A stretch of DNA of 64,000 nucleotides from Deltaproteobacteria bacterium (GTDB taxonomy: Bacteria; Myxococcota; Myxococcia; Myxococcales; SZAS-1), in NCBI GenBank assembly GCA_018266075.1, contig JAFEBB010000030.1, forward strand, positions 1 through 64,000, in the 5' to 3' direction. The stretch's first letter is position 1; every line of letters starts with the position of its first letter. Both the position numbers and the translations under genes were made by a program. Positions 28,276 to 37,468 of the stretch are shown here, piece by piece. The notes under the pieces are model-generated. The model had not been told where the DNA came from, did not search any database, and saw only the letters and a program-made list of their open reading frames with translations.

Positions 28276-28523
28276 GGTCCGCCGCCCGGAAGCGCGCCGT
28301 TCAGAATCCCTTCGAAGGGCTGGCGCCCGAGTCGCTGCCGGCCACGCTGCCGCGCGAGTCGCGGCTGGCGCCGCCGTGGGAGGGGCTCGAGGCCCCCGAC
28401 CTCGAGGCTTTGCGGGCGAGCGCGGGCTTTGGCGGCGCAGTGTCGGCCGGTGAGCCTGGCAAAATCCACCGCGCGCGAAGACCCTCCCCAGCCAGGGCAA
28501 GGCCTGTCATCATGCGCGGGTGA
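28272..28523 (+). CDS. Small proline-rich protein, coupled to both neighbours
   Basis: 83 residues from GTG 28272 (GTGA overlap upstream and again downstream at 28520). Codon bias is strong for the first two thirds and fades near the C-terminus. Contains PFEGLAPESLPATLP and PPWEGLEAPDLEAL, two similar Pro-containing segments. No family recognised. Confidence 0.5.
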   Translation: MRSAARKRAVQNPFEGLAPESLPATLPRESRLAPPWEGLEAPDLEALRASAGFGGAVSAGEPGKIHRARRPSPARARPVIMRG

Positions 28524-29548
28524 CGGCCAAGCCTTCACCAACGAAAAGCGCCGACGAGCTCGCGCGCGACCAGCTGGTCCGCGAGCTGCGCGCGCTGGAG
28601 ACGCCGGAGCTTCTGGCGCTCTGCTTGCGTGGGCGCAATCGGCTCGATCGCCTGCGCCTGTATCTCTCGCTGCTGCGCGGCCGCGCAGGCGCGCGGGCCC
28701 AGCTCGCCTCGTGCCTGGTGTGCTTCGACCTGGCCCGGCAGGGCGACGACGTGGCGCAGAAGGAGTTCTTCGCGCTCGCGCCCACGATTGAGGAGCTCGC
28801 CCGCGACGGCAAGATGGTGAGCGACCTGGTGGCGCACGACGCCTACCTGGAGCGCACCTGGAACGAGTGCCTCACCGCGCTCGAGAACAGCGATCAGCGC
28901 GAGCTCGACGCGCCGCTCTCCATCGACGAGTCCGCGCCCATTGGCGAGCTCGATCTGCTCTCCGACGTCGAGCTCGAGCTCGATCTGGAGCTCGAGGTCC
29001 TGCCGCAGGCCGAGGACCCGATCCACGTGGAGCGGGCGAAGTTCGAGTTCGCCAACATCCTCGCGCGGCAGCTCGGCCAGGACTCGGAGCACGGCATCTT
29101 CGGCGGCACCGGCTTCGAGACCGGCTCCAGCCGCGAGCTCGATCGCCTCCAGGGCTTTCTGGATCAGGCCATCTCCTACTCGGACATGGTCACCACCGCG
29201 CGGGGCATGGCCAGCCTGGGGCACCTGTTCCTGGCCACCAGCCTCCGCATGAAGTCGCTCTTCGGCAAGCGCAACCCCCGCCGCGCCCAGGCGCTGCGCA
29301 CCGGGCTCTTGCGCCTGCCCGCCGACGTCACCTCCATCGAGCACGCGGCCGCCATCTTCGAGCTCGAGGGCGGCAACGCCATGGTCGCGTTCGAGAAGGT
29401 GGTCGAGCTGGTGCTCGACTACCTGGCCTACTGCCACCAGCAGCGCAAGGATCCACGCGCCGCGGTGACCGTGGACTCCTACGTGGAGTCCGAGCGCACG
29501 CCGCAGCCGGTGCTGCTCACGGGCGAGAGCCGTCGCCGTCGAGGCTAG
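28520..29548 (+). CDS. Acidic cytoplasmic protein of unknown function
   Basis: 342 residues from GTG 28520, overlapping the previous stop. No signal or helices for membrane. Mostly alpha-helical; a strongly acidic leucine-rich stretch (LDLLSDVELELDLELEVL) lies around residues 150-170, then ERAKFEFANILARQLGQ and a helical C-terminal half. I see no catalytic motif. Two bases separate its stop from the large lipoprotein gene, so the four genes likely act together. Confidence 0.7.
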   Translation: MTAKPSPTKSADELARDQLVRELRALETPELLALCLRGRNRLDRLRLYLSLLRGRAGARAQLASCLVCFDLARQGDDVAQKEFFALAPTIEELARDGKMVSDLVAHDAYLERTWNECLTALENSDQRELDAPLSIDESAPIGELDLLSDVELELDLELEVLPQAEDPIHVERAKFEFANILARQLGQDSEHGIFGGTGFETGSSRELDRLQGFLDQAISYSDMVTTARGMASLGHLFLATSLRMKSLFGKRNPRRAQALRTGLLRLPADVTSIEHAAAIFELEGGNAMVAFEKVVELVLDYLAYCHQQRKDPRAAVTVDSYVESERTPQPVLLTGESRRRRG

Positions 29549-29550
29549 CG

Positions 29551-32406
29551 ATGTGGCGGGCGTGGGTGTTGCCGGCGCTGCTCTGCGCGGGCTGTGCGTC
29601 GGCGACGAGCGTCCGCTTCCCTCAGGACATCGCGGCCTCGTTTGCCAAGCAGCCCATGCGGTATCTCGAGACGCCGGAGCTCGAGCTCTACTACCCGGCC
29701 GACGCCCAGTCCGACGCGATGCGCATCGCCGGGCGGCTCACGCACTGCCTGGAGACGCTGCGCCAGTTGCCGCTCTCGCAGACGCCGCGGCCGCGGCTGC
29801 TGCTCTATTTGACGAGCGCCAACTTCAACAACGCGTACGTGCAGCCGATGTTTCTCGGCAACCCGCAGCAGATGGTGGTGCCGCTCCACGAGACCGACGA
29901 GCTCTTCAACCTGCTCATCGCGCCGGGCGCCGAGATCGGCGACGTGACCTGTCACGAGGCCGTGCACTATGTGCAGCTGCAGCAGGTCGAGGGCCTGTGG
30001 TGGTGGGTGAACCACTTCGGCGGGGAGATCCTCTCGCCCAACATCTTCACCGAGTCGTGGTTCCTCGAAGGGCTCGCGGTGCACTACGAGGGCCGCCTCG
30101 ACAAGGACGTCGGCCGGCCGTGGAACCCCATCTGGCGCGGCCTGTTTCCCTCGGGCGTGGCGAGCCGCGGCGGCAAGCTCAACCCCGGCTACCTCCAGCC
30201 CGACCAGCGCGACACCACGCCGTTCGGCGGCAACTACCTGGTCGGCGAACAGTTCGTGGACTACCTCGCGACCACGTACGGCGAGCAGAAGCTGTGGGAG
30301 CTCGTCGATCGCGAGGCCAACAGCCCCGCGCCGCAGCTCGCGGTGGCCGTTCAGTTCATGCGCGTGTACGGCAAGACCCTGGGCGGGCTCTTCAAAGAAT
30401 TCAGCGAGCACCTCGAGAAAGAAGGGCTGCAGCGGCCGCGTCCTCCGAACCAGCGCGTGCTCGTGGATGACCTCGGCTTCTACGCGCGCATGACCGCCGC
30501 GCCCGATGGGACGCTCGCCGTCATCTTCGCGCCGCGCGATCGGCCGGTGGAGCTCGGGCTCTATGGGCCCGACGATCACGAGATATATCGCGTGAGCCTC
30601 GCCCCGCTCTTGCCCGAACGGCCGTTCATCACCACCAGCCCCACGGCGATCAGCGGCTTGTGCTTCTCGAGCGATGGGAAGCGGCTCTATTTCGTGGTGC
30701 AGGACGTCGCGCTCGACGGCGACGACGAGAGCAAGCTGGTGGAGCTCGACGCCGCCTCGGGCGAGCCGCTCCGCACCTGGCGCTGGCTCGAGGGCATGGG
30801 CGGCGGACTGATGCCCGACGGGAAGAGCTACGTCTTCACGCACCTCGAAAAGGACGTCGCCAACCTCGTGGCCATCGACCTCGAGAGCGGCAAGCGGCGC
30901 GCGCTCACGTTCTTCACCACGCACCAGAGCCTGGGCGTCTCCGCGATCTCGCCGAGCGGCAAGCGCATCGTCTTCCCCAAGTGGATGGGCCAGGGCTTCG
31001 ACCTGTTCGTGCTCGAGGACGGCGTCGAGCGCGCGGTCACGCACGATCAGCACTTCAACCAATCGCCGCGCTTCCTCGACGAGGACCACGTGGTGCTGCT
31101 CCGCGACGTGGACGGCCGCGCGCAGGCGTCGATCGTGGACCTCGCGTCGGGCGCCGTGAGCCAGGCCACGGACGCGCCGTTCACCGCGTTCGACCCCGCG
31201 CCGCGACCCGGCGGTCGGCTCGCGTTCGTGAACCGCGATGCCTGGAGCTGGACGCTGGACGAGGTCCCGCTCGACGCGCAAACGCCCGCGACCATCCCCG
31301 AGCCGGTGCCGCCCGCGAACCTGGAGGCCGCGTCGTCCGAGGTTCAGGTGGTTCGCGACGAGCCGTATCACGCGACCGATCACCTGCTGGCGCCGACGTA
31401 CCACCTGCCGCTCGTCGTGCTCGGGAGCGCGTCGCCGACTTCGATCACCGCGGGCATCGAGGTCGCGGGCAGCGATCGACTCGGCTTTCACAACTACGAC
31501 CTGCAAGCGTCGTACGGCTATCCCGGCGGGCTCATCAGCTTTGCCGGCGACTACGTGAACATGCAGCTCGCGCCCTGGCAGCTCGGCATCAGCGCCAGCC
31601 GCCTCGAGGACAGCGAGCACACCATCGAGTACGACCTCGATCTGGGCATCTCGCGCACCTTCTGGACCACGCCGGTCACGCTCGACGTCCCCTTCATCCG
31701 CCGCGAGTCCGCAGGGTTCACGGGCGATCTCGTGGGGCCGCGGCTCACGGTGCTGCTCGCGCCGGTGACGGGCTCCGTCTACGGCGGCACGCAGCGCGGC
31801 TTCAGCTTGAACCTCTCCGGCCAGGGCTTCCCACGCGGCCTGGGGAACGACTTCGACTTCGCGGACGTCCGCAGCGCGCTGCGAATCTGGCTCCCGCAGC
31901 CGATCCCGCGCGCGAGCCTGAGCGTGCTCGGCGTGGCGCGCGCGCTCCCCGGTGCGCCCGAGACCTTGCTGACGGTGGGCGGCCTCCAGCCCGCTGGCCT
32001 CATCTTCCAAAGCAGCAACACCGGCGCAGATGGATTGCAGGGCGTGATCCTGCCCACCCAGGTGAGCTTCAACGAGCCGCTGCGCGGCTACGAGGACTTC
32101 ACGCTCCACGGGAACGCGGTGCTCATCGGCGGCGCCGACTTCCACGTGCCGCTGGTCATCGACTACGGCTGGGCGTCGTTCTTCTACATCCTGCCTTCGT
32201 TCTTCGTGCGCGAGGTGGACCTCGACGCCTTCGGACGGCTGGCACAGCTCGACGGACCGGTGCCGGGAACGCACCGCGTCGTGGGCGCGCAGCTCTCCCT
32301 CCAGACCCGCATCGGCAGCCTCTATGCGCCCGTCTTGTATGTGCAATTCGCCAATCGCTTCGACGACGGACTGGGCCCGCTGACCTTCTTTGGGCTCTCG
32401 CTGTAA
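29551..32406 (+). CDS. Outer-membrane lipoprotein: zinc-peptidase-like, beta-propeller and barrel fusion
   Basis: 951 residues. Lipobox LLCAGC puts the lipidated Cys at residue 15. Residues about 40-300 form a peptidase-MA-like domain with HEAVH (135-139) and the third zinc ligand Glu173 in WFLEG. Residues about 310-600 carry TolB-like propeller strands (FSSDGKRLYFV, LMPDGKSYVF, ISPSGKRIVF). The last 320 or so alternate polar/hydrophobic with many Tyr/Phe and end in Leu, like a BamA/D15-type barrel. Related all-in-one proteins exist, but the lipid anchor with a barrel is odd. Probably surface proteolysis or transport. Confidence 0.8.
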   Translation: MWRAWVLPALLCAGCASATSVRFPQDIAASFAKQPMRYLETPELELYYPADAQSDAMRIAGRLTHCLETLRQLPLSQTPRPRLLLYLTSANFNNAYVQPMFLGNPQQMVVPLHETDELFNLLIAPGAEIGDVTCHEAVHYVQLQQVEGLWWWVNHFGGEILSPNIFTESWFLEGLAVHYEGRLDKDVGRPWNPIWRGLFPSGVASRGGKLNPGYLQPDQRDTTPFGGNYLVGEQFVDYLATTYGEQKLWELVDREANSPAPQLAVAVQFMRVYGKTLGGLFKEFSEHLEKEGLQRPRPPNQRVLVDDLGFYARMTAAPDGTLAVIFAPRDRPVELGLYGPDDHEIYRVSLAPLLPERPFITTSPTAISGLCFSSDGKRLYFVVQDVALDGDDESKLVELDAASGEPLRTWRWLEGMGGGLMPDGKSYVFTHLEKDVANLVAIDLESGKRRALTFFTTHQSLGVSAISPSGKRIVFPKWMGQGFDLFVLEDGVERAVTHDQHFNQSPRFLDEDHVVLLRDVDGRAQASIVDLASGAVSQATDAPFTAFDPAPRPGGRLAFVNRDAWSWTLDEVPLDAQTPATIPEPVPPANLEAASSEVQVVRDEPYHATDHLLAPTYHLPLVVLGSASPTSITAGIEVAGSDRLGFHNYDLQASYGYPGGLISFAGDYVNMQLAPWQLGISASRLEDSEHTIEYDLDLGISRTFWTTPVTLDVPFIRRESAGFTGDLVGPRLTVLLAPVTGSVYGGTQRGFSLNLSGQGFPRGLGNDFDFADVRSALRIWLPQPIPRASLSVLGVARALPGAPETLLTVGGLQPAGLIFQSSNTGADGLQGVILPTQVSFNEPLRGYEDFTLHGNAVLIGGADFHVPLVIDYGWASFFYILPSFFVREVDLDAFGRLAQLDGPVPGTHRVVGAQLSLQTRIGSLYAPVLYVQFANRFDDGLGPLTFFGLSL

Positions 32407-32472
32407 CCGGCTCAACGGAGTTCCGTCCAGGCTATATATTTGCACCCGTCGATCGGGAATCTTCGCCTCGGC

Positions 32473-32673
32473 ATGCACCGGCCATCGACCCTCGCGTTGA
32501 AGTGCCCGGTCTGCCACCGGGATGTGGCGCCGATGCCCATCGAGGGCATCGCGGAGCAGGCGCTGCAGGCGCGCGATCTCTTCATCCGCCACGCCGACCG
32601 GCAGCACGGCGTGGGCGAGCTCGACGCGCTGATGTTCTACGCCGAGGCGCTGCGTCGCCGCGCGAAGCTCTGA
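32473..32673 (+). CDS. CCHH micro-protein A
   Basis: 66 residues with C-X2-C-X25-H-X4-H (CPVC near the start, HADRQH after a helix). The spacing is longer than a classic C2H2 finger but shared with two neighbours. Codons end in G/C almost without exception, confirming that it is real. ATG 32473 is the best start; the ribosome site is weak. 15 bases before the methyltransferase gene, same strand. Confidence 0.65.
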   Translation: MHRPSTLALKCPVCHRDVAPMPIEGIAEQALQARDLFIRHADRQHGVGELDALMFYAEALRRRAKL

Positions 32674-32688
32674 TATCCAGCGGCCGGA

Positions 32689-33348
32689 ATGGACCGCGCC
32701 GCCCGACGACAAGCGATTCGCGCGAGCACGCGCTTGCAGTCGCCCAGGCTCTGTCCGGAGCTGACGCTGGCGCTCGGCGATCGGCTCATGGACGTGTGGC
32801 AGGCCGCCGAGGACGCGGAGGGCAAAGGCCAGCTGCCCTCGCCGTTCTGGGCGTTCGCCTGGCCTGGCGGGCAGGCCCTCGCGCGGTTCGTGCTCGATCA
32901 TCCGGACGTCGTCCGCGACAAGCGCGTGCTCGACTTCGCCTCGGGCTGCGGGGTGAGCGCCGTGGCCGCGGCGCGCGCAGGTGCGGCCCGCGTCATCGCC
33001 GCCGACATCGATCCCTGGGCCGCCGCGGCCATCGAGGAGAACGCCCGCGCCGCGGGCGTCGAGGTCGACATCCGCGAGGACGATCTCGTCGGCCGCGACG
33101 AGGGCTGGGACGTGGTGCTCGCGGGCGACGTCTGCTACCGGCAGGAGTGGTCACCGGGCATCGTGCGCTGGCTGCGGACCCTCGCCGCGCGCGGCGCCCA
33201 CGTGCTGCTCGGCGATCCCGGCCGTGGCTTCACGCCGACCCAGGGCCTCAACGAGCGCGCGCGGTACGTGCTCGCGACCACGGTCGATGTGGAAGGCGCC
33301 GCCCAGCGGGAGCCGCGCGTCTGGGACGTGCTGCCCGACGAGCGCTGA
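32689..33348 (+). CDS. ETFB-lysine-methyltransferase-like (METTL20 family) methyltransferase
   Basis: 219 residues, class I SAM fold. PFWAFAWPGGQALARF, VLDFASGCGVSAVAAARAGA (motif I) and AADIDPWA (motif II) are typical of the METTL20/ETFB lysine methyltransferases and of the nearby METTL21-like group. These methylate lysines on folded proteins such as electron-transfer flavoprotein beta. No ETF genes are in the window. Between CCHH micro-proteins A and B. Confidence 0.85.
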   Translation: MDRAARRQAIRASTRLQSPRLCPELTLALGDRLMDVWQAAEDAEGKGQLPSPFWAFAWPGGQALARFVLDHPDVVRDKRVLDFASGCGVSAVAAARAGAARVIAADIDPWAAAAIEENARAAGVEVDIREDDLVGRDEGWDVVLAGDVCYRQEWSPGIVRWLRTLAARGAHVLLGDPGRGFTPTQGLNERARYVLATTVDVEGAAQREPRVWDVLPDER

Positions 33349-33349
33349 A

Positions 33350-33571
33350 TCACTGAACCGGTTCGCTCGGTCCCGACTTGAGCGCGCTGCGTGCGGCCGC
33401 GGCCCGGAGCTGCGCCAGCGCGCGCGCGTCCGTGGGCTTGGCGCCGTGCACCCGCTGCAGGTGCGTGGTCAGCTCTTGCTCCAGCCAACCCAGGGTTCGA
33501 TCCAGCTCGTCGCTCACTCCGGTCGCGGCCCAGTCGCACTGGGCACACCGGAGCTCCACCAACCTCGCCAT
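33350..33571 (-). CDS. CCHH micro-protein B
   Basis: 73 residues on the minus strand. The motif is CAQC-X24-H-X4-H (ending HLQRVH), then an Ala-rich helix. ATG 33571 follows a GGGAG site eight bases away. Its end is one base from the convergent methyltransferase gene. Same motif as A and C. Confidence 0.65.
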   Translation of the reverse strand: MARLVELRCAQCDWAATGVSDELDRTLGWLEQELTTHLQRVHGAKPTDARALAQLRAAAARSALKSGPSEPVQ

Positions 33572-33707
33572 CGCAAGCGCTCCCGCTCGCCACCCCGCCC
33601 CGAGCGTCGACAAAATAACATCATTGGCCTGCAGGGGAAGATGGCGGCGCATCCATCTGGGGCGTCGGCCGTTGAGGCAGGAGGGCCGAAAACCAAGCCG
33701 AGGCACC

Positions 33708-33839
33708 ATGTTGGTCATCCCTTGCTTCCTCTGCGGTTGGTGGGGCTTCGCCCACGACGACGAGCTGGGCTCGCGCGACCTCCTTCGCGCGCTGCGGGCG
33801 CACCTGCGCAAGGCACACCAGCAGCAAAGCGTGTCCTGA
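33708..33839 (+). CDS. CCHH micro-protein C
   Basis: 43 residues: CFLC-X22-H-X4-H (ending HLRKAH) with a helix rich in Arg/Leu between. ATG 33708 has GAGG just upstream. Divergent from B across a 136-base gap in which no other gene is seen. The tiny size leaves almost only the motif itself. Confidence 0.6.
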   Translation: MLVIPCFLCGWWGFAHDDELGSRDLLRALRAHLRKAHQQQSVS

Positions 33840-33929
33840 GCGCTGGACAACGCCGTTCACCTTCCATCAGATCCTTTTGCTTCCCGGTGCGTGCCTTCAG
33901 GCGCGGTGCCGTGAGAGATGGAGGATTCG

Positions 33930-35882
33930 ATGGTGGCTTCGTACCTGGCCGCGCTGATCTTGGCCGCGGCCGTCGATGCGCCGGTGACGTCGGTGGAGGT
34001 CTTCAGCGATCGCGCGCGCGTGACGCGGCTCGCGAACGTGACCCTCGGCGCGAGCGAGAAGGTCGAGCTCCCGCTGCTCCTGGACACCGTGGATCCCGCG
34101 ACGGTCCGGCTCACGGCGAAGAACGCCGAGGTGCGCCGCGTAGAGCTCGCGCGCGTGGAGGCGCAGGACTTCCCAAAGACCGAGGCCAAGAAGCTCCTCG
34201 ACGCGCTCGACGCGCTCGACGACGCCATCCGCCAGACCGAAGGCGAGCGCGGCGCCGCGCAAGCCGTGCTCGAGGTGCTCAATCGCGTCCGGCCGACGCT
34301 GCCGCCGAGCGAGCCTGGCAAGCCGCAGCCGCACCTCACGCCCGCGAGCTGGACGAGCTCGCTGAACTTCGGGCGCACCTATCGCGAGAAGCTGCAGACG
34401 CGGATCCGGGCCGCGTCAATCAAGCTCGAGGATCAGAATCGCGAGCGGCAGAAGCTGCTCGCCGAGGCCGCCAAGCTCCAGGCCGAGCGGCACGGTGGCT
34501 GGCGGGTGACGGCGACGGTCGCGGGGAGCGGGCCCGCGCAGCTCGCGCTCACGTACATGGTCTCCAACGCGCGCTGGTACCCGAGCTACGACCTCACGCT
34601 CTTGCCGGATCGCGCGCAGGTGATGGTCTCGTTCGCGGCGCTGGTGAGCCAGGAGTCGGGCGAGGACTGGGACAACGCGCGGCTCACGGTGAGCACGGCT
34701 GTCCCCGCGAGCGCGACCACGTTCCCCAAGCTGCGCACCTGGAAGATCGGCGAGAAGGAGCGCTTCATTCCCACGCCCTCGCCCGCCGCGGAGTTCATCC
34801 CGCCCGCGCCGCCCGCCGTGCCGCCCCTCGCCATGGCCGACACCGACACAAACCTGCTCTTGCGTCGGCTCGCACAGCGCGCGGGCACGGCCGACTACCG
34901 CTTCAAGGACAACGGCAAGAACGGCGCCATCGGTCAGACCCGCGGCGGCGAGACCGGCATTGAGCTCGACCGCGACGGCGATGGAATCCTCGACCAGGAG
35001 GACGACCTCAAGAAGGCCGCACCTGCCGAGAAGCCGAAGCCGCCGCCTCCGCCGCCGGCGATGACCGCGCGCCCGCCCGAGAGCGCGCCGGCAGCGCCTT
35101 CGCCGGTGATGATGGATGAGGTGATGGAGGAGCGCGAAGCCACCGTGTCAGGCGGCTTCGCTCGCGGCGAATCCGCAGACAAGTACGTGCCCACCGTGCA
35201 GTTCGGGCTCGCGCCGCCGCCGGGCTACGTGGCTCCGAGCTACGCCGCCAACCTGCCCGCCGCGCTCGCCGGTGGCTATGACCTCGCGTTCGACTCGGTG
35301 CAGCCCGAGACCGTCCCCAGCGGCAAGGGCGCGCGGCACGTGGCGCTCTTCGCGGTGGCCTGGCCGGTGACCGTGGAGCGCAAGCTCTACCCCGCGCTCG
35401 CGCCCGAGGCGTTCCTGGTGGCCGAGCTGAAGAACCCGCAGTCCAACGCGCTTCCTGGCGGGGAGGCGAACCTCTACGTCGGCGCGGATCCCGCGGGCAC
35501 CGCGCACCTGGGCTTCGTGGCCCCGGGCGAGGAGTTCACCCTGCCGCTCGGGCTCGATCGCGCGATCAAGCCGGTGCGCAACGTGAAGCTGGTGCAGGCC
35601 GAGAAGGGGATCATCGGCAAGGACGAGGTGAACCAGTACGACGTGACCATCGAGGTCGCGAATCCGTACGGCGTGCCCGTGTCCGTCAAGACGTTCGACC
35701 AGTGGCCGGTCACCGACGACGAGCACGTGGAGGTGAAGCTGCTCTCCACCGCGCCGTACGCGAAGCAGGATCCGGTCAAGGGCTCACTGGAGTGGGACGT
35801 GGTCCTGCCGCCGCACGGCAAGACCACCCTCGCCTTCAGCTACTCGCTGCGCCACCCGAAGGACACGAGGCTCCACCAGTGA
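33930..35882 (+). CDS. Secreted DUF4139 protein (mucoidy inhibitor A-like), copy 1
   Basis: 650 residues with a short signal. The N-terminal DUF4140 signature (VTSVEVFSDRARVTR) and a coiled-coil section (about 80-180) precede the DUF4139 beta domain (about 185-650). Within it is a Pro/Ala-rich insert (about 350-400) and an Asp-rich ELDRDGDGILDQEDD that looks like an EF-hand/thrombospondin-3 calcium loop. ATG 33930 is picked for the GGAGG five bases ahead. Fold only is known; function open. Confidence 0.8.
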   Translation: MVASYLAALILAAAVDAPVTSVEVFSDRARVTRLANVTLGASEKVELPLLLDTVDPATVRLTAKNAEVRRVELARVEAQDFPKTEAKKLLDALDALDDAIRQTEGERGAAQAVLEVLNRVRPTLPPSEPGKPQPHLTPASWTSSLNFGRTYREKLQTRIRAASIKLEDQNRERQKLLAEAAKLQAERHGGWRVTATVAGSGPAQLALTYMVSNARWYPSYDLTLLPDRAQVMVSFAALVSQESGEDWDNARLTVSTAVPASATTFPKLRTWKIGEKERFIPTPSPAAEFIPPAPPAVPPLAMADTDTNLLLRRLAQRAGTADYRFKDNGKNGAIGQTRGGETGIELDRDGDGILDQEDDLKKAAPAEKPKPPPPPPAMTARPPESAPAAPSPVMMDEVMEEREATVSGGFARGESADKYVPTVQFGLAPPPGYVAPSYAANLPAALAGGYDLAFDSVQPETVPSGKGARHVALFAVAWPVTVERKLYPALAPEAFLVAELKNPQSNALPGGEANLYVGADPAGTAHLGFVAPGEEFTLPLGLDRAIKPVRNVKLVQAEKGIIGKDEVNQYDVTIEVANPYGVPVSVKTFDQWPVTDDEHVEVKLLSTAPYAKQDPVKGSLEWDVVLPPHGKTTLAFSYSLRHPKDTRLHQ

Positions 35883-37468
35883 ACGCCATGCTCAGCCTCG
35901 TCTCCGTCCTCGTCCTCGCTGCGGCACCGGCCACGCCCGTGGTGCGCGCCACCGTCTATCCCGATCGAGCGCAGGTCGTTCGTCGCGGTGAGCTCCCCTG
36001 CGGTCCGCGCGCCATGCTGCGCTTCGAGAACCTGCCGCCCTCTGCCGAGGCGACGTCGTTCCGCGCCGCGACCGATACGGGGACCGTCGAGGGCCTGCGC
36101 GTGGAGGCGCATCCGCAGCTCGACGCGTATTCCAAGCCGGTGGTCGACGCCGAGAAGGAGCTGCACGACCTGCGTCAGAAGCAGGCCGCGCTGCAGGACG
36201 ATCGGAGCCGCGCGGAGCAGGAGGCGGCGCAGTCGGCTTCGTACGGCGAGGTGACGGCCACGCTCCTCTCGCGCGAGATGGTCGAAGACAAGCCGAACAC
36301 CAACGCCTGGAACGGCGCCCTCGACGCCCAACTCGACGGGCAGCTCCGCGCGAACCAGGCCGTGGTGAAGGTCGACGCGCAGCTTCGTGACGTGGAGCTG
36401 AAGATGGCGAGCGTCAACGCGCGGCTCGCTCAGATGCAGGCCGCCGCAGCGCGGAGCACAACGACTGCGGAGGTCCTCGTCTCCTGTCCGGCCGGGAAGA
36501 CGGCGCAGGTGGAGCTGACCTACCTCGTGGGCGGCGCGGGCTGGCAGCCGGCCTACGAAGCGCGCGCCGACGAGGGCGCGGGCGCGGTGGAGCTCACGAC
36601 CTTCGCGACGGTGCGTCAGGCGACGGGAGAGCCCTGGAACCACGCGCAGCTGATCCTGTCGACGGCGGTGCCCCGCCAGAGCGCGACGCCGCCGGAGATC
36701 CAACCGCTGCGCGTGGGCGCGTCGGAGAAGTCCGAGGAGCGCAAGGTGCTCGTGCGGCGCGACGAGGAGACCAAGCACGCCGAGGTCTCCACCGCCGACG
36801 CGACCGCGACCACGCCCGCCGCCGGCAAGCCGCTGCGCGCCGCAGATCAAGGGCTCTCGGTGCAGCTCTCGGCGCCGGAGCCGTCGGACGTGCCTGGAGA
36901 CGGCACGCCCTCGCGCGTCTTCGTGGCGCGCAACAAGCTGCCCGCGAAGTTCGCGCTGCGCACGGCGCCCAAGCTCGCGCCGTTCGTGTTCCGCGTGGCC
37001 GACCTCACCAACAGCGCGCCCTTCCCCCTCCTGGCCGGGCCCATCGACGCGTTCCGCGGCGCTGGCTTTCTGGGTCGCACCGCGCTCGAGCGCGTGGCCG
37101 TGGGCGCGCCGTTCCATGTGACGTTCGGCATCGACGAAGCGGTGAAGGTGAAGCGCACCGTGCTCCAGGAGATCCAGCGGCAGACCGGCGTCTTCGGTGG
37201 GAACCAGCGCTTCAGCTTCGCGTACCAGTTCGAGGTGGCGAACTACCAATCGGGCGCGCGGCACATCGAGCTGGCGGAGCACGTGCCCGTGAGCGAGCTC
37301 GACGACGTGAAGGTGGAGCTCGAGACCAAGACCACCGCCGGCTTCGACCTCCAGCGCGACGACGGCATCGTCACCTGGAAGCTCGACCTGCCCGCGGGCA
37401 GCACGAAGAAGGTGAACCTCGCCTTCCACGTCGACGTGCCCAGCAGCTACGACACCTCGGGCCTCTGA
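35879..37468 (+). CDS. Secreted DUF4139 protein, copy 2
   Basis: 529 residues from GTG 35879 (GTGA overlap with copy 1; GAGG site eight bases ahead), with ATG 35888 as the alternative. Same layout: signal, DUF4140-like VRATVYPDRAQVVRRG, coiled coil (about 95-195), DUF4139 with WQPAYEARAD and GEPWNHAQLILSTAVP. It lacks the calcium-like loop. Paralogues in tandem suggest a heteromeric envelope complex; inference. Confidence 0.8.
   Translation: MNAMLSLVSVLVLAAAPATPVVRATVYPDRAQVVRRGELPCGPRAMLRFENLPPSAEATSFRAATDTGTVEGLRVEAHPQLDAYSKPVVDAEKELHDLRQKQAALQDDRSRAEQEAAQSASYGEVTATLLSREMVEDKPNTNAWNGALDAQLDGQLRANQAVVKVDAQLRDVELKMASVNARLAQMQAAAARSTTTAEVLVSCPAGKTAQVELTYLVGGAGWQPAYEARADEGAGAVELTTFATVRQATGEPWNHAQLILSTAVPRQSATPPEIQPLRVGASEKSEERKVLVRRDEETKHAEVSTADATATTPAAGKPLRAADQGLSVQLSAPEPSDVPGDGTPSRVFVARNKLPAKFALRTAPKLAPFVFRVADLTNSAPFPLLAGPIDAFRGAGFLGRTALERVAVGAPFHVTFGIDEAVKVKRTVLQEIQRQTGVFGGNQRFSFAYQFEVANYQSGARHIELAEHVPVSELDDVKVELETKTTAGFDLQRDDGIVTWKLDLPAGSTKKVNLAFHVDVPSSYDTSGL

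Follow-up and report, generated by a model that had tools for sequence, protein, structure and literature searches.

The window (the whole stretch of DNA that was analysed, 64,000 nucleotides) contains, within 1.4 kb, three short reading frames whose translations carry two cysteines and two histidines (CCHH). P0001 (32473 to 32673, forward strand) encodes 66 amino acids with the arrangement C11-X2-C14-X25-H40-X4-H45, P0002 (33350 to 33571, reverse strand) encodes 73 amino acids with C9-X2-C12-X24-H37-X4-H42 and P0003 (33708 to 33839, forward strand) encodes 43 amino acids with C6-X2-C9-X22-H32-X4-H37; translation confirmed the lengths, the use of both strands and the spacer range of X22-25 given in a preliminary description of this DNA. 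Between the first two lies P0004 (32689 to 33348, forward strand; 219 amino acids), a class I methyltransferase outside the finger family, which matched PrmA (37.5 bits against a cut-off of 22) and the Methyltransf_16 lysine methyltransferase family (28.8 bits against 21) in Pfam, and METTL21C in the PDB (E 0.0012). P0004 starts 15 bases after the end of P0001 and is convergent with P0002, tail to tail and one base apart, while P0002 and P0003 are divergent. A consensus scan of positions 32350 to 33960 gave no promoters or terminators.

A six-frame search of the 64 kb window with the pattern CxxC-x18-30-HxxxxH returned P0001, P0002 and P0003 as its sole matches. In 30 simulations with a third-order Markov model of the window DNA, matches averaged 0.93 per 64 kb, and three matches would by count alone have a P of approximately 0.07; because of this random background the motif count is weak evidence, and the strength of the case comes from homology. 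For each of the three the codon score was highest, of all six frames, in the frame given above (0.61, 0.25 and 0.28 bits per codon for P0001, P0002 and P0003 respectively, the other five frames of each being negative), and their position-specific GC content resembles that of the local genes.

As a single query against 60 genomes, P0002 found three additional places in its own genome and none in the 59 relatives, two of the three being proteins of 133 to 139 amino acids with two tandem fingers. Profiles built from seven fingers (A2) and 14 fingers (A3) gave 13 and 15 own-genome matches respectively, and a profile of 15 fingers (A9) gave 15 fingers at E 4e-13 or better with the next match at 0.068, a gap of about ten orders of magnitude; these 15 fingers belong to 12 host genes, P0002 and P0003 among them. 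Inspection of weak profile matches for the exact ligand pattern added two more genes, one on contig 9 at 21.6 kb (E 0.068, CPVC...HICDAH, 20.1 bits, with none of 2000 shuffles as good) and one on contig 6 at 139 kb (E 0.13, CPLC...HLDKAH, a 66-residue protein), bringing the family to at least 14 genes and 17 fingers on 11 contigs, P0001 excluded. As profiles A9 to A11 include most of these fingers, their E-values are partly self-matches, and the independent tests of the family are leave-one-out scoring and shuffles. When left out in turn, all 14 fingers scored 19 to 73 bits, each above all of its 500 shuffles, including P0002 (46.9 bits) and P0003 (19.1 bits), for which the top shuffles reached 6.9 bits each, and none of 2000 motif-keeping shuffles reached the score of either. 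P0002 and P0003 each also match a profile of paralogues built without them, and, where the preliminary description saw little else in common beyond the ligands, they have in common a Trp two positions past the second Cys and a Leu following the first His; the Trp is absent from P0001 and from the contig 9 protein.

The DNA pattern CxxCxW...HLxxxH occurs at 18 places in the host genome (13 family fingers and 5 places in other sequence) and its backwards control at none, compared to 0 to 9 matches per genome, with controls of 0 to 6, in 78 other genomes. When 1.18 Mb of the host genome (overlaps and the window included) was searched exhaustively with a profile, 11 fingers from 9 genes were recovered at E < 1e-10, with no new finger and nothing else under E 0.5 (best reversed control 1.7); since the profile contains those fingers, this gauges completeness and not independence. 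Judged by their profile scores, P0002 and P0003 are clear members of a family of CCHH micro-proteins, and to that extent the preliminary description, which saw a local family of mini-proteins here, was borne out. The idea that the family is local was rejected, as members are spread over 11 contigs and P0002 and P0003 did not group in the tree (they were together in 10% of bootstrap trees, support being low throughout). The chance expectation for a pair among 12 genes to fall within 1.4 kb is 0.024, and some local duplication at the window is possible.

P0001 is harder to place. It scored 3.3 bits with profile A3 (65 of 2000 shuffles equally good) and 7.8 bits with A9 (5 of 2000). With A10, an enlarged profile, the score was 9.9 bits, and 2 of 2000 plain and 33 of 2000 ligand-fixed shuffles were equally good; the exhaustive search of 1.18 Mb missed it at E 5. 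Its start codon is uncertain, a simple gene caller having chosen 32524, a start that removes the Cys pair. The sequence score is weak but the predicted fold is that of P0002 (below), and P0001 is probably a divergent family member.

Outside the host the family was not found. At E 0.001, profile A3 matched the host alone among 195 genomes of the phylum (none of the 194 others), and although profile A2 gave 39 matches at E < 0.1 in a search of 146 genomes of the order, the best outside the host was 0.003 and the seven non-host matches checked were all partial or broken by stops. Narrower queries, each with a reach of close relatives, also found no match: the two-finger alignment was run on named genomes and viral contigs, P0002 on viral contigs and plasmids, a two-finger protein on phages and plasmids, and P0001 on plasmids. 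The host was the sole genome of its taxonomic family searched, and therefore absence is demonstrated for the other families of the order. Formally this goes against the preliminary description, which had looked to relatives for conservation: in those examined there was none, and the conservation seen is among paralogues. Among the genomes searched, the family thus appears to be spread genome-wide in the host and restricted to its lineage. In the excerpts returned by a literature search no description of such a CCHH family was found, and DUF1059, a family of small CCHH proteins considered below, was mentioned in passing only.

The preliminary description also had the fingers flanking a protein-lysine methyltransferase, which is true of the window and does not extend to a conserved link. 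Genes of the P0004 type are common (22 of 60 genomes of the order match at E 1e-15), and in a scan of 23 methyltransferase loci, one of them the window, no family member was found within approximately 1.5 kb at the 22 others, near which there were two chance-like CCHH strings in overlapping frames; a finger was likewise lacking near all 80 named methyltransferase loci (best profile match E 0.016). The methyltransferase was therefore rejected as a conserved partner. The host has a second methyltransferase of this type on contig 18 (108421 to 109044, 47% identical), with no adjoining finger gene. An operon partner was also rejected, as none was common among 10 neighbouring proteins, part of the total, which were scanned from ten non-window loci gene-called by a simple script; these neighbours were a patatin, a response regulator, a heme-binding barrel, a kinase, an HTTM protein, a DciA-like protein and four proteins that remained unmatched. 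The family genes are solitary and, because the neighbouring genes vary by locus, their surroundings give no functional clue. By eye, one member (host contig 46, 31.4 kb) lies between two Hsp20 chaperone-like genes. Around the window pair itself, a 951-residue protein with a lipoprotein-like start and, by eye, a HEAVH motif (29551 to 32406, forward strand) and a 342-residue protein (28520 to 29548, forward strand) had no Pfam match at E 0.001, and two DUF4140-DUF4139 proteins lie in tandem at 33930 to 37468 on the forward strand.

Across the family the C, C, H and H positions are invariant and the Trp and Leu nearly so (15-row alignment). The spacing from second Cys to first His is 22 to 26 residues in 17 fingers (P0001 counted, the contig 6 finger left out), 14 of which have 23 or 24; this upholds the remark that the spacing exceeds that of the classic C2H2 finger, where it is 12. 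Three genes, all outside the window, have two tandem fingers and the rest have one. Three one-finger members have a VARHLRxxHG core in common and are basic (pI 10.1, 11.4 and 11.8), while the two-finger proteins and the window pair P0002 and P0003 have pI values of 6.0 to 7.9. By sequence comparison the two-finger paralogues are under constraint at the protein level (dN/dS 0.30, 0.50 and 0.56, the upper two values coming from divergent pairs with dS near 0.8); in the closest pair 58 of the 105 differences fall at third codon positions.

AlphaFold2 models of P0002 (3-row alignment, mean pLDDT 86.3; strands 3-8 and 15-20, helices 23-42 and 46-65) and P0001 (single sequence, mean pLDDT 84.3; strands 6-10 and 17-22, helices 27-45 and 48-65) have a common predicted beta-beta-alpha-alpha fold, in which the Cys pair would lie at the turn of the hairpin and HxxxxH would end the first helix, in agreement with the helix noted earlier from sequence ahead of the His pair. 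P0003 is without the second helix. No structural match at E 0.001 or better was found for P0002 in the PDB or BFVD, or for P0001 in the PDB, and the best VIA-align Z scores (5.3 for P0002 and 4.6 for P0001) are in the range that the tool calls common.

Three other explanations for these proteins were weighed. That three unrelated proteins carry the motif by coincidence, the DNA being GC-rich, is very improbable: the loose pattern is indeed expected about once per 64 kb and P0001 is weak in sequence, but the matches that P0002 and P0003 have by profile among dispersed paralogues, the codon signal and the 18 to 0 excess of the DNA pattern argue against it, and it survives for P0001 only. It is also rather unlikely, in our view, that the family is a distant branch of DUF1059 (PF06348), a family widespread in the host's order and among archaea, and that its first knuckle has shrunk to C-X2-C from an original C-X6-C or longer. 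DUF1059 proteins are similarly small, with two Cys, a helix ending in HxxxxH and a second helix; three of seven fingers matched DUF1059 weakly (best E 0.0035), an hhalign comparison of the two families scored 18.4 where the best of 200 column shuffles scored 16.2, and the host has two true DUF1059 genes, of two subtypes (contig 69 at 39494 and contig 84 at 7012). However, the hhalign probability was 15.7%, the fingers reported fall below the DUF1059 gathering score of 21.1 bits (P0003 13.4 bits and the two-finger protein of locus L095 17.3 bits), and P0001 and P0002 gave no DUF1059 match at all. In the alignments compared, the Cys spacing of DUF1059 is C-X6-C or longer and not C-X2-C; DUF1059 also differs from the family in having approximately 17-18 residues to the first His, no Trp and only one or two copies per genome. 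In view of the hhalign comparison, there may be a remote common origin with DUF1059.

The remaining explanation, which we hold to be similarly doubtful, is that these are DNA-binding regulators like Ros: a Cys2His2 module whose additional helix reads DNA would have multiplied in this lineage to give dedicated regulators. Ros/MucR zinc fingers (PF05443) gave no reported match to the fingers, and Ros was missing among the matches listed by Foldseek and VIA-align, although its absence there does not exclude a Ros fold. According to the excerpted text of PMC9779718, the zinc ligands of Ros are C79, C82, H92 and H97 (HX4H) and a helix is added to the classic hairpin and helix, so that the layout of the family, with C-X2-C, H-X4-H, a hairpin, a helix and an extra helix, resembles it; the same text gives Ros a spacer of 9 residues against the 22-26 of the family. 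The pI values of 10 to 12 in three members and the tandem fingers of three genes would suit DNA binding, but P0002, P0003 and the two-finger proteins lie in the neutral to slightly acidic range, and Ros differs in having N-terminal oligomerisation and basic flanks. The family therefore resembles both Ros and DUF1059 in layout and fits the definition of neither. The classic C2H2 finger (PF00096) similarly has its Cys pair on a hairpin and its His pair on a helix, but has the shorter spacer and lacks the extra helix, and a two-finger protein scored 9.8 bits against it, below the cut-off of 25.2.

The reading that we favour, with moderate confidence, is that a dispersed family of paralogues has two clear members and a probable third in the window, and that its products are most likely zinc-stabilised binding modules. 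Each finger would be a compact module, with a beta hairpin carrying Cys-X2-Cys at its turn, then a long helix with His-X4-His in its final turns and usually a second helix after it, and the four ligands would most likely hold one zinc ion. As the proteins are too small for catalysis, we infer a binding, regulatory role for them. Protein docking would be the task of the neutral to acidic members, which include P0002, P0003 and the two-finger proteins, and nucleic acid binding that of the basic one-finger group, a split by pI that we favour with low confidence. A comparison may be drawn with the C(P)XCG micro-proteins of Haloferax, in which many small one-domain zinc-finger proteins likewise occur in one prokaryote, although these are archaeal, have four Cys in two C(P)XCG motifs and are, as far as tested, non-homologous to the family. 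Excerpts of PMC6562870 describe dozens of one-domain zinc-finger micro-proteins in Haloferax, with a phenotype in 12 of 16 deletions, and those of PMC11241148 report that only 9 of 14 purified C(P)XCG proteins bound zinc and that AlphaFold2 cannot discriminate the binders. This mixed precedent for zinc binding, together with the structural search that gave no significant match, counts against the zinc-module reading.

It may be, although we would put this forward only as speculation, that the lineage has expanded its own Cys2His2 finger with a long helix and HxxxxH to at least 14 genes, the copies specialising in their protein or nucleic acid partners. If true, this would be, on a small scale, a bacterial counterpart of the zinc-finger expansions seen in particular animal lineages, and the family would let one ask whether modules of this type expand in bacteria as they do in eukaryotes. 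Small one-domain zinc-finger proteins of bacteria are little studied, and constant ligands with variable surfaces, in one-finger and two-finger forms, would allow the origin of new binding specificities to be studied on a minimal scaffold. As a minor observation, a TACACT-like element was seen by eye six bases before the ATG of two of the two-finger genes (in L093 before 6975 and in L094 before 6878, both on the reverse strand), a position which fits the -10 box of a leaderless transcript.
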